NCBI RefSeq assembly: GCF_030167915.1
Contig: NZ_JARGNB010000009.1
Span: 124,001-188,000 of the forward strand
Length of the DNA: 64,000 bases
Source of the DNA: Aquabacterium humicola
GTDB lineage: Bacteria > Pseudomonadota > Gammaproteobacteria > Burkholderiales > Burkholderiaceae_C
Reading direction: 5' to 3'
Shown: piece after piece, positions 12,124 to 61,226 of the stretch
How positions within the stretch are numbered: the first letter of the stretch is position 1
How the letters are laid out: each line of letters starts with the position of its first letter
The notes under the pieces: model-generated
Seen by the model: the letters and a program-made list of their open reading frames with translations, nothing else
What the model was told of the DNA's origin: nothing
Databases searched by the model: none
Program-made: the position numbers and the translations under genes

Positions 12124-12129
12124 CACAAT
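12124..12129 (+). promoter_or_regulatory. -10 box for the moaA leader ORF
   Basis: CACAAT lies exactly 7 bases before the ATG of the 25-codon ORF at 12137, so transcription should begin at or next to that ATG. The spacing is identical at the surE leader. Confidence 0.45.
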
Positions 12130-12136
12130 CGGCCGG

Positions 12137-12214
12137 ATGGTCCGCCCCCTGCTCACTTCGTTCGCTCCCCCCAAGGGGGGCTCAGCGCCCTACGGGCGGC
12201 CGGGCGGGCGCTGA
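12137..12214 (+). repeat. dispersed repeat copy A, forming a 25-codon leader ORF for moaA
   Basis: A GC-rich repeat with two short hairpins (C6/G6 around AA; GCCC/GGGC around TAC). Read from the ATG at 12137 it encodes 25 residues containing [18 protein letters not shown], and its TGA overlaps the moaA ATG by one base (TGATG). The copy before surE (61136-61213) has the same length, frame and junction. Translation is inferred from the preserved frame and junctions. Confidence 0.6.
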
Positions 12215-13323
12215 TGGGCGAAACGATCATCCCCCTGGCCGACCTGCGCTATAGCGCGCTGGTGCCGCCCATCCCCGAGCAGCTGACGCCGCCCACCGGC
12301 CTGCTGGCCGACCGCCTCGGCCGGCCGCTTCACGACCTGCGCATCTCGGTCACCGACCGCTGCAACTTCCGCTGCAGCTACTGCATGCCGAAGGAGGTCT
12401 TCGACCGCGACCATGCCTTCTTGCCGCAGGCTTCGCTGCTGAGCTTCGAGGAGATCACCCGGCTGGCACGCGTCTTCGTCGCGCACGGCGTGCGCAAGCT
12501 GCGCCTGACCGGCGGCGAGCCCCTGCTGCGCAAGGGCCTGGAGACGCTGATCGCCATGCTGGCCGAGCTGCGCACCCCCGACGGCCAGCCGCTGGACCTG
12601 ACGCTGACGACCAACGGCTCGCTGCTCGCGCGCAAGGCGCGGGCGCTGGCCGATGCCGGCCTGAAGCGCGTGACGGTGAGCCTCGACGCGCTCGACGACA
12701 CCATCTTCCGGCGCATGAACGACGTCGACTTCCCGGTCGCCGACGTGCTGCGCGGCATCGACGCGGCGCAGGCCGCGGGCCTCGGGCCGATCAAGCTGAA
12801 CATGGTCGTCAAGCGCGGCACCAACGATCACCAGATCGTGCCGATGGCGCGCCACTTCCGCGGCTCGGGCCTCGTGCTGCGCTTCATCGAGTACATGGAC
12901 GTCGGCGCCAGCAACGGCTGGCGCATGGACGAGGTGCTGCCGTCCGCCGACGTGCTCCAGCTGCTGCAGGCCGAATGGCCGCTGGTGCCGCTCGACCCGA
13001 CGGTCGAAGGCGAGACCGCCGAGCGCTGGGCCTATGCCGACGGCGGCGGCGAGATCGGCGTGATCTCCAGCGTCACGCAGGCCTTCTGCCGCGACTGCAA
13101 CCGCGCGCGGCTGTCCACCGAGGGCAAGCTGTTCCTGTGCCTGTTCGCCAGCCGCGGCCACGACCTGCGCGCGCTGCTGCGCGGCGGGCGCAGCGACGAG
13201 GAGATCAGCGCCGCGATCGGCCCGGTGTGGGCCGCTCGGGATGACCGTTACTCCGAGCTGCGCGGCGCGGCGCAGGTGCCGGCGGCTGAACGACGCATCG
13301 AGATGCACTACATCGGCGGATAG
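12214..13323 (+). CDS. moaA: GTP 3',8-cyclase, molybdenum cofactor biosynthesis
   Basis: Radical-SAM enzyme that, with MoaC, turns GTP into cyclic pyranopterin monophosphate, the first step of molybdopterin synthesis. The SAM cluster motif is CNFRCSYC, after RISVTDR. The C-terminal cluster has [10 protein letters not shown] plus a third cysteine in LFLCLF. The protein ends in GG, the conserved tail that contributes to catalysis in MoaA. The ATG at 12214 gives 369 residues with an N-terminal extension of about 40. It is coupled by TGATG to the upstream 25-codon ORF and lies 98 bases before moeA. Confidence 0.96.
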
Positions 13324-29469: not shown

Positions 29470-29697
29470 TCAGCCGCCGCCGGGCCGCCCCAGGGCGGCT
29501 GACGCCCCCTCGGGGGGCAGGAGCGAAGCGACGTGGGGGTCCCAGCCGCCGCCGGGCCGCCCCAAGGCGGCTGAGCCTCGCAGGCCGCGCCGGTCCTTGC
29601 GGACCAGCCGTTCGCCAGGCGAGGACAGTCCGCTGGACTGTCCTCGTCCGGGCTCACCCCCCTCGGGGGGCAGGAGCGAAGCGACGTGGGGGTCCAT
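29470..29697 (-). repeat. two tandem repeat copies (C) in a 75-codon ORF between ybaB and recR
   Basis: The ATG at 29697 abuts the ybaB TGA (TGAATG), and the frame closes 4 bases before the recR GTG. It encodes ASLLPPEG near both its ends and [10 protein letters not shown] twice. The second copy is continuous ([18 protein letters not shown]); the first is split by about 26 codons that contain two hairpins, one with perfect 12-base arms (29620-29631 and 29635-29646). Frame and composition match copies A and E. Confidence 0.6.
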
Positions 29698-30024
29698 TCA
29701 GAACGGGAACTTCATGCCGGGAATCTGCGGCATGCCCGCGGTCAGGCGACCCATCTTCTCCTGCGTCGTCGTCTCGACGCGGCGCACCGCGTCGTTGAAC
29801 GCCGCGGCGACGAGGTCTTCCAGCATGTCCTTGTCGTCGGCCAGCAGGCTCGGATCGATGGTCACGCGCTTGACGTCGTGCTTGCAGGTCATCTGGACCT
29901 TCACCAGTCCCGCGCCGGACTGGCCTTCGACCTCGATCGTCGCCAGCTCTTCCTGCGCCTTGCGCAGGTTGTCCTGCATCGCCTGGGCCTGCTTCATCAG
30001 CCCGGCGAGTTGGTTCTTCATCAT
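29698..30024 (-). CDS. ybaB: nucleoid-associated protein, YbaB/EbfC family
   Basis: A 108-residue dimeric DNA-binding protein. Family features are the N-terminal amphipathic helix ([20 protein letters not shown]), the strand pair around [26 protein letters not shown], and a C-terminal helix ending PGMKFPF. It lies 53 bases after dnaX and before recR, as in most proteobacteria, which suggests a link with replication or repair. Two ATGs (30024, 30021) are adjacent at the start. Confidence 0.95.
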
Positions 30025-33185: not shown

Positions 33186-33284
33186 GTGACGGGCCTCCTC
33201 GCATGGAAGCGCGGCCAACCGGGTCAGGTCGGGAACGAAGCAGCCCTAACCGTTGCGACCAGTGCCGAGGGCAAGGCTCGTCAC
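33186..33284 (+). ncRNA. ffs: signal recognition particle RNA (4.5S)
   Basis: The RNA scaffold of SRP that binds Ffh and targets nascent membrane proteins. The conserved apical loop GGTCAGGTCGGGAACGAAGC and the following AGCCC are present. The ends pair (GTGACGGGCCT with AGGCTCGTCAC, one G-U pair), giving a 99-base single hairpin, slightly shorter than the E. coli RNA. A TACAAT at 33175-33180 is placed correctly for a start at about 33186. No T-run terminator follows directly. Confidence 0.93.
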
Positions 33285-33489
33285 CCTCACCAGCGTCAGC
33301 GCACCGTGCCATCCGAGTGCAGCATCGGCGCAACGCTTTGAGCGCGTGGTAACGCGCGGCGACCTCGCGACGTCAACCCGCCCCCACCTGCGACGTTAAG
33401 ATCATGGAGGTAGTGCTGCGCCCCTTCCGTGCATCGAGTTTCGAGCGGGCGTCTTGGCTCTTTCCCTCGAATCCAACCAGGAGTTGCTG

Positions 33490-33885
33490 ATGAAGATGAA
33501 GACTGCTCTCTCGCTGATCGCCACCGTGGCCGCCGCGATGGTCGCCCAAGCCGCCTACGCGCAAGCCGCCTCGTCGCCGAGCCGTGCCGAAGTGAAGGCC
33601 GAGGCCAAGAAGGCCGTCAAGGAAGGCAAGACCGCCGCTGGCGAAGCCACGCCGGGCGCCGCGCCGGCCGCGACCGGCAAGAGCGACAAGGCCCGTGCCG
33701 ACGTGAAGGCCGAGACCAAGGCCGCCGTCAAGGAAGGCAAGACCCCGAAGGCTGGCGAAGCCACCCCGGCCGCTGCCACGGCCACGGGCACGTCCGACAA
33801 GGCCCGCGCCGACGTGAAGGCCGAGACCAAGAAGGCCGTCAAGGAAGGCACCACTCTGCCGGCCGGCGAAGCCACCAAGAAGTGA
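33490..33885 (+). CDS. small secreted Ala/Lys-rich three-repeat protein
   Basis: A 131-residue exported protein. A signal peptide (MKMKTALSLIATVAAAMVAQ, cleavage after AYA) is followed by two and a half copies of a unit of about 37 residues beginning ARADVKAETKKAVKEG, then a Pro/Ala/Gly stretch (AGEATP). The charged part should be helical and the linker flexible. AGGAG lies 8 bases upstream of the ATG. No domain is recognised; DUF4148-like Burkholderiales envelope proteins look similar. It stands alone between ffs and a strong hairpin. Function unknown. Confidence 0.8.
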   Translation: MKMKTALSLIATVAAAMVAQAAYAQAASSPSRAEVKAEAKKAVKEGKTAAGEATPGAAPAATGKSDKARADVKAETKAAVKEGKTPKAGEATPAAATATGTSDKARADVKAETKKAVKEGTTLPAGEATKK

Positions 33886-60301: not shown

Positions 60302-60378
60302 CGACGCCCCCTGCAGCGCTGCGCGCCGGTCCCCCCGAGAGGGAGCGAGCGCCTTCGGAACGGCCGAATGGCGCTCAT
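60298..60378 (-). repeat. GC-rich repeat-like spacer (D), a 26-codon ORF bridging surE and pcm
   Basis: The ATG at 60378 overlaps the surE TGA (ATGA), and the TGA at 60300-60298 overlaps the pcm ATG (ATGA). The spacer is thus read end to end as one frame, with an Arg-rich product. Its plus-strand composition (CCCCC, CCGGTC, CCCCCCGAGAGG) resembles copy B in the opposite sense. Translation is inferred. Confidence 0.45.
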
Positions 60379-61136
60379 GCGCGCTCCAGGCGCACCCGCC
60401 AGTCGCCGAGCGCCTGATGCTCGGTCAGGTCGACCTGCAGCGGCGTGATCGACACGCAACCCGTCGCGGTGGCGTGGAAGTCGGTGCCCTCGCCTGCTTC
60501 GCGTGCGTCGCCGGCGGGCCCGATCCAATAGATGGCCTCGCCGCGCGGATTGGTCTGCTTCACCACCGGTTCGCTCGCATGGCGACGGCCCAGGCGCGTG
60601 ACGCGGCGCGGCAGCGAGGCCGCGTCGGGCCGGTTCGGAATGTTGACGTTCAACAGCCAGGGCCGCGACGACGGCGGCGCCTCGAGCACCTGCTCGACCA
60701 CGGCACGCGCGACGCGCGCGGCTTCGTCCAGGTGCGTCCAGCCGCGCTCGACCTGCGAGAAGGCGATCGCCGGTATGCCGAACAGGTAGCCTTCCATGGC
60801 CGCGGCGACGGTGCCCGAGTACAGCGTGTCGTCTCCCATGTTGGCGCCCTGGTTGATGCCCGACAGCACGAGGTCGGGCCGCTGCGGCAGCAGACCGGTC
60901 AGCGCGACGTGCACGCAGTCCGACGGTGTGCCGTTGACGACCAGGAAACCGCGCTGCGATTCCCCGCGCGCCTCGAAGACCGACAGCGGCCGGTTCAAGG
61001 TCAAGGCGTTCGAGGTGCCGCTGGCGTTCTGCTCCGGCGCGATCACGGTGATCTCGCCGAGACCCTGCATCGCGCCGACCAGCGCCGCCAAGCCGGGCGC
61101 GAGGTAGCCGTCGTCGTTGGCGATCAGTATCCGCAT
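60375..61136 (-). CDS. surE: 5'/3'-nucleotidase SurE
   Basis: Metal-dependent nucleotidase/exopolyphosphatase for stationary-phase survival. The metal site is [15 protein letters not shown], with Ser/Asn ligands in the loop following. Further marks are [27 protein letters not shown] and [25 protein letters not shown]. The ATG at 61136 gives 253 residues; the in-frame extension upstream is repeat DNA. It heads surE-pcm-nlpD-rpoS, the order known from E. coli, and its ATG is overlapped by the stop of a 25-codon leader ORF. Confidence 0.96.
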
Positions 61137-61213
61137 CAGTGCCCGCCCGGCCGCCCGAAGGGCACTGTGCGCCCCTCGGGGGCCGCGAACGAAGTGAGCT
61201 GGGGGCTGACCAT
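61136..61213 (-). repeat. dispersed repeat copy E, forming a 25-codon leader ORF for surE
   Basis: Same length, frame, promoter spacing and TGATG junction as copy A at moaA. It encodes [18 protein letters not shown], 14 of 21 aligned residues identical to copy A without gaps. GC hairpins (GCCCC/GGGGC around CGA; GCCC/GGGC around TTC) are kept although the bases differ. Confidence 0.6.
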
Positions 61214-61220
61214 CTCGCGG

Positions 61221-61226
61221 ATTGTA
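61221..61226 (-). promoter_or_regulatory. -10 box for the surE leader ORF
   Basis: TACAAT on the minus strand ends exactly 7 bases before the leader ORF ATG at 61213, so the surE-pcm-nlpD-rpoS transcript probably begins at that ATG. Confidence 0.5.

Follow-up and report, generated by a model that had tools for sequence, protein, structure and literature searches.

A dispersed hairpin-forming repeat at start codons in Aquabacterium humicola and its relatives, probably carrying a stop-restart reading frame coupled to the gene behind it

The moaA gene of Aquabacterium humicola is preceded by a 25-codon ORF that, in our reading, belongs to a dispersed, hairpin-forming repeat of about 77 bp, which inserts at start codons and carries a stop-restart ORF coupled to the gene behind it. 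We put the probability of this reading, which rests on the comparison of sequences, at roughly 80%. Two copies lie in the window (the whole stretch of 64,000 nucleotides that was analysed, positions 124,001 to 188,000 of contig NZ_JARGNB010000009.1), one in front of moaA and one in front of surE on the opposite strand (Table 1). A repeat comparison within the window found them to be an inverted pair, 86% alike across 92 bp, and the identities of moaA and surE both score above curated NCBIfam cut-offs. An earlier note, made from the letters of the window, had described one and the same layout at the two genes, namely, a −10-like box, seven bases, ATG, 25 codons and TGATG. This layout was confirmed at both, with the correction that the box of surE is TACAAT and not CACAAT, and the peptide cited in that note was recovered in the translation of the mini-ORF. 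At the Rfam gathering score, the only match in the window was Bacteria_small_SRP, and 12 loci with copies gave no match, so that a known RNA family was rejected as the identity of the repeat. Elsewhere in the window, the bacterial small SRP RNA lies at 33188-33285 (Rfam RF00169, 67.6 bits), and direct repeats with 111-bp spacing occupy 33582-33876, probably a coding region.

Table 1. The two copies of the repeat in the window, with the boxes before them and the genes behind them (positions are those of the window)
Feature	Position	Strand	Basis
−10-like box of moaA (CACAAT), predating the repeat	12124-12129	+	Hexamer in repeat-free moaA loci
Mini-ORF before moaA, 25 codons plus TGA; its ATG (12137-12139) lies 7 bases (12130-12136) past the −10-like box, spacing as for a leaderless start	12137-12214	+	Sequence, translation, frame control
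Inserted repeat unit, 77 bp	12137-12213 or, equally, 12140-12216 (ATG unassignable to either end)	+	Repeat-free sites; copies in register
Hairpin I of the repeat	12164-12181	+	Single-strand fold, consensus
Hairpin II, which extends to the stop/start junction	12182-12214	+	Fold, consensus, compensatory changes across copies
TGATG, where the mini-ORF stops and moaA starts (moaA ATG, 12214-12216)	12212-12216	+	Sequence
moaA, GTP 3',8-cyclase, 369 aa	12214-13323	+	TIGR02666, 380.9 bits against a cut-off of 284.05
−10-like box of surE (TACAAT)	61221-61226	−	Also in repeat-free congeners
Mini-ORF before surE, 25 codons, second copy of the window; ATG at 61213-61211, 7 bases past the box, and TGATG at 61138-61134	61136-61213	−	Repeat-free sites in congeners
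surE, 5'/3'-nucleotidase	60375-61136	−	NF001489, 363.1 bits against a cut-off of 295

Repeat-free sites in relatives indicate what preceded the insertion. The closest named relative in the moaA scan was Aquabacterium terrae S2 (91% identity; Pseudaquabacterium terrae, Sphaerotilaceae, in the taxonomy). Upstream regions of moaA were examined at 80 loci, of which one (L062) was excluded as too short; the repeat was present at 0 of the 79 judged at the cut-off used, and 58 of these repeat-free loci have a −10-like hexamer 5 to 9 nt ahead of an ATG that is no more than 90 nt from the moaA start. The surE site is repeat free, with TACAAT ahead of an ATG, in 19 of 20 congeners, and the 20th, P. terrae (L306), has a 20-nt remnant that lies between two ATGs and begins like the repeat. 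Among 18 genomes, the rlmI start is filled in three (A. humicola, G018 and G002) and without the repeat in 15, including P. terrae. The three fillings (L421, L423 and L431) are sequences that differ by eye and would apparently represent three separate insertions at the rlmI ATG, as judged from these differences and not from a tree of copies. Filled sites have an ATG on both sides of the repeat, compared with the single ATG of the empty sites at moaA, surE and rlmI, and neither ATG can be assigned to the element itself. The repeat-free moaA, surE and rlmI sites show that the −10-like box and the ATG were in place before the repeat, which inserted at that ATG; on this comparison of filled and empty sites, a 77-bp dispersed repeat is inserted at the ATG of moaA, with one ATG now on each side. 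As a separate observation, the filling of the rlmI start in three genomes suggests a hot spot for targeting.

The repeat family extends beyond the species. Its copy numbers are given as minimum values, since the searches scored a fraction of their candidates, and a fraction of the listed matches was read. Repetition beyond chance is seen in the 7.39-Mb genome of A. humicola, in which a 106-bp query gave at least 49 matches at an E value of ≤10, at least 46 of them at ≤0.01, with 40 of the 81 candidates scored. Model R1, built from 18 copies, gave at least 81 matches at ≤0.01 (150 of 14845 candidates scored). At 29 of the best 30 R1 places in this genome, the element lies at a gene start, in an in-frame fusion or in a tandem unit leading to a gene; the 30th (L138) has behind it only a 64-aa ORF that is not called as coding. 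Eighteen of 31 relatives, with A. humicola itself counted, match R1 at an E value of ≤1e-6, all within the genus, and 0 of 12 genomes from other families of the order do so. Within the same taxonomic family, at least 40 of 150 genomes and at least 38 of 141 genera match at ≤1e-9 (30 candidates scored per genome). The unit measures 77 bp, with longer variants of 101 to 107 bp; its ends are ATGGTC and CTGATG, and tandem pairs occur. Among the genes behind copies, ligA, hemA, murB, mutM and purU score above curated cut-offs, dinB is above the cut-off in one of nine models and rlmI scores below its cut-offs; the named genes are spread over different pathways. Three copies fused in frame (L122, L132 and L253) form N-terminal extensions of proteins that by eye are phosphoglycerate-mutase-like, PAS-containing and PaaC-like, respectively.

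For the census of junctions, 248 nhmmer hits were reduced to 197 unique full-length copies by removal of partial, edge and duplicate ones (35 from A. humicola, 34 from P. terrae and 128 from other genomes), a sample that leans to the start-codon type and in which other subfamilies are undersampled because R1 was built from start-codon copies. Downstream genes were called by codon-position GC, nearness and ATG, with no use of the mini-ORF frame. In 160 copies, counted as coupled, the mini-ORF ends within −6 to +12 bases of the gene start; these do not represent independent events, as the TGATG junction was mostly passed down from master copies. Of the other copies, 6 are in-frame fusions, 5 are uncoupled, 4 have no start codon at the element edge and 22 have no called gene behind them. 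By eye, 10 of these 22 precede another unit in a tandem array (L003, L215, L250, L007, L008, L393, L399 twice, L388 and L167), and 2 more, L132 and L253, are fused in frame with no new start codon; the other 10 are neither and lie at no called gene. Coupling takes the form of a +1 overlap (TGATG) in 53 copies, −1 (TGANATG) in 52, +4 (ATGA) in 41 and other arrangements in 14. The mini-ORFs have 24, 25, 26, 33, 34 or 35 codons, and tandem pairs are read as single ORFs of 50 and 59 codons. In the position of stop and start, which overlap or are a few nucleotides apart, and in the keeping of the frame, the copies agree with a translationally coupled leader ORF.

The frame control covered 168 of the 171 gene-start rows (L146, L236 and L256, in which the called start lies at least 8 nt past the element, were omitted). 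Frame 0 is coupled in 160 rows, fused in 6 and runs on in 2, whereas the +1 and +2 frames of the same rows couple in just 4 and 12, respectively. One of the run-on rows, L368, is a real failure; the other, L007 unit 2, is a second tandem unit whose frame was read from the first. Openness of the ORF alone is weak evidence because GC-rich DNA has few stops, and the proposition that stops are avoided in frame 0 only was uninformative: of the places at which a change could create a stop, none of 5 showed one in frame 0, and neither did any of 6 and 1, respectively, in the other two frames. Where there is no earlier stop and the frame permits ATGA, the gene starts with ATGA in 41 of 44 copies, compared with 29 of 116 copies with an earlier stop (Fisher P of 9e-16), and the remaining 3 of the 44 genes start with ATGTTGA or ATGCTGA and end the mini-ORF one codon on (7-nt overlap). 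In a stricter set, which keeps only the copies with a base other than A after their own ATG so as to exclude duplication of an ATGA target, the proportion is 15 of 17 (P of 8e-7). The earlier claim of a copied cassette whose ORF is placed for coupling is upheld by the census and the frame control, with the strong copies in the same sense as the gene that follows, and the contrary outcome that the earlier note had named, a majority of copies with frameshifts or without the junction, did not occur among the copies examined.

Coupled copies occur in two settings. In the operon type, the stop codon of an upstream gene lies beside the start of the element; this type accounts for 88 of the 160 coupled copies (7 of 25 in A. 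humicola, 11 of 30 in P. terrae and 70 of 105 elsewhere). With tandem units left out, a −10-like hexamer lies 5 to 9 nt before the ATG in 48 of 67 leader-type copies and 8 of 92 operon-type copies, and before about 2% of all ATGs in the loci. The spacing of box and ATG suggests leaderless initiation at the leader-type copies.

The superfamily also has a stop-codon class, whose census used 25 of the 30 loci fetched, out of 51 matches. Thirteen have the sense of the gene before them and follow its stop immediately or within 12 nt, 8 are antisense with the complement of a stop at the element end, and 4 are neither. A 24-codon frame with a GTG or ATG start beside the stop of the gene is present in 8 of the 13 sense copies and 0 of the 8 antisense copies (A. 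humicola, L275 to L299); ribosomes leaving the gene might read these eight sense frames. Copies of this class also lie on the minus strand of the window at 29471-29701, apparently with one interrupting another. The first begins at the TGA of the upstream gene, whose product ends in MKFPF and which we take to be ybaB-like; the neighbour on the other side is presumably a recR-like gene.

The explanation that competes most seriously with ours takes the repeat for structured DNA or RNA, either mobile or a terminator or attenuator, with ORF and junction as mechanical by-products and no selection for translation. An element end of CTG or CTGA next to a duplicated ATG yields TGATG automatically, and hairpin II covaries strongly: pair 53-75 is GC in 91, UA in 26, CG in 16 and AU in 4 of 151 copies, and the paired cells of this hairpin reach 0.955, compared with 0.832 with partners shuffled, although relatedness among copies inflates such counts. 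The folding energies by themselves are unremarkable: the energy is not lower than that of shuffled sequences for the moaA copy (z of −0.25) and is lower for the surE copy (z of −2.65). No purifying selection on the mini-ORF peptide was seen in 33 distinct 25- or 26-codon copies from A. humicola and P. terrae (codons 4 to 25), in which 15 of the 57 synonymous changes that could arise are seen, as are 45 of the 136 nonsynonymous ones, and third codon positions are the least variable. The antisense stop-class copies, of the same superfamily, likewise all lack the 24-codon frame. What a by-product does not account for is the prevalence of ATGA in copies that have no earlier stop, in the stricter set as well, the maintenance of frame in fusions and tandem pairs and the rarity of coupling in the other two frames. 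We consider this explanation unlikely, and the alternative raised in the earlier note, a structured RNA repeat that merely happens to stay open, survives in part: the compensatory changes in hairpin II and the lack of purifying selection on the peptide agree with it, but the frame and the place of the stop are maintained much more strictly than in the other two frames.

A second rival is a regulatory leader peptide, whose amino acid sequence, or the ribosome stalling upon it, would control the next gene in the manner of attenuation. The copies of A. humicola and P. terrae do encode similar peptides, but a functional peptide was rejected for want of a synonymous excess; in other genomes and subfamilies the element is partly read in other frames, giving other peptides, and is still coupled, and the genes named above fall into different pathways. 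Such a role seems very improbable. Least credible of all is a mobile promoter or start-site cassette that supplies the −10 box and the ATG. The identical spacing at moaA and surE would fit this idea, which was also the earlier note's view of a promoter-proximal cassette bringing a start site, but that view was not borne out: the box varies between copies, box and ATG are older than the repeat at moaA, surE and rlmI, where the repeat-free sites speak against a promoter-carrying element, and most operon-type copies have no box. A repeat that inserts at start codons and brings a stop-restart frame remains our preferred reading.

REP elements are linked to the REP transposase (Y1_Tnp). A search for the Y1 transposase (PF01797) gave 0 matches in the genome of A. 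humicola and was positive in 5 of 14 control genomes; mobilization by a RAYT was therefore rejected. REPs are described as palindromes of 20 to 40 bp with a GTAG or CGTC tag at one end, and those of the GTAG kind often provide an adjoining ORF with its TAG stop codon (PMC3733652). The present repeat resembles them as a short dispersed palindrome at gene edges, and GTAG REPs are its closest precedent in position, but it is about 77 bp long, has two hairpins and no GTAG or CGTC end tag and uses the start codon as its site. As for the features of MITEs, a short target duplication was found, with ATG on both sides compared with one at empty sites (the ATG itself being unassignable), and no clear terminal inverted repeat was seen by eye in the copy alignment. 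The Rickettsia palindromic elements and other MITE-like repeats have been described as fused in frame to ORFs (PMC10969869, PMC2229807). They share with the present repeat a small size, mobility and an open frame tolerated in coding DNA; however, they are inserts inside ORFs, whereas the present repeat lies mostly in front of them and forms an ORF of its own that ends in a stop/start junction.

The nearest description is that of the BRE, a GC-rich repeat of 75 to 91 bp, dispersed and in tandem, in Bordetella (Hot et al. 2011, PMC3110155). Its range is given as Betaproteobacteria including Comamonadaceae, with 29 copies in Polaromonas sp. JS666, and it overlaps some ORFs by a few bases at the 5' or 3' end; in the BRE section of that paper, function is unassigned and insertion at start codons is not reported (PMC3110155). 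The present repeat agrees with it by description in length range (77-bp units), GC richness and tandem pairs, and the BRE may be its kin. The record of Polaromonas sp. JS666 contains three weak R1 matches, which points to a repeat of related design, and a JS666 copy used as a query found 40 matches in JS666, most of them over only its first ∼50 nt. Coupling through overlapping or nearby stop and start codons is established in Escherichia coli (PMC2268962), where, as here, the next start overlaps the stop or lies a few nucleotides from it; there it connects ordinary genes, and here it is supplied by a dispersed repeat. A literature search conducted mostly outside subscription journals and preprints did not find a repeat that inserts at start codons with coupling.

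We propose the following mechanism. Before the insertion, moaA would apparently have been leaderless (−10 box, ∼7 nt and ATG), and even with the repeat in place transcription should start on or next to the first ATG. A ribosome would initiate on this ATG at the leaderless end, read 25 codons through both hairpins, stop at the TGA and reinitiate on the overlapping ATG of moaA; at operon copies, the ribosome terminating on the upstream gene would instead reinitiate at the first ATG of the element. The ends of the repeat would themselves make a new insertion coupled immediately, and later selection for expression of the gene would keep frame and junction (TGATG, TGANATG, ATGA or in-frame fusion) and not the peptide. 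The sequences themselves show the presence or absence of the repeat at start codons, the ATG on either side, the conserved frame and junction, the covariation of the hairpin and a peptide free of purifying selection; the leaderless mode of transcription, the translation of the mini-ORF, the reinitiation and whatever effect these may have on expression we infer from this arrangement. More tentatively still, with the balance of our judgment somewhat against it, the repeats could be a class of mobile element that targets start codons as such, leaderless and operon ones alike, and carries a programmed stop-restart ORF by which an insertion does no harm; this would shift many genes, essential ones among them, from leaderless or native initiation to reinitiation, and their expression might then be set together through reinitiation factors.

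A gene whose start codon takes up an insertion is ordinarily knocked out. This repeat family nevertheless occupies the start codons of genes, including ligA, hemA and murB, in many genomes of one bacterial family, and such occupation is tolerated apparently because the repeat brings its own stop-restart frame. The finding raises the question of which kind of transposition finds start codons. If our reading is true, it would account for a class of tiny ORFs that might be annotated as hypothetical genes or as incorrect gene starts, and the copies would amount to a natural collection of numerous test constructs in which reinitiation follows a leaderless start.
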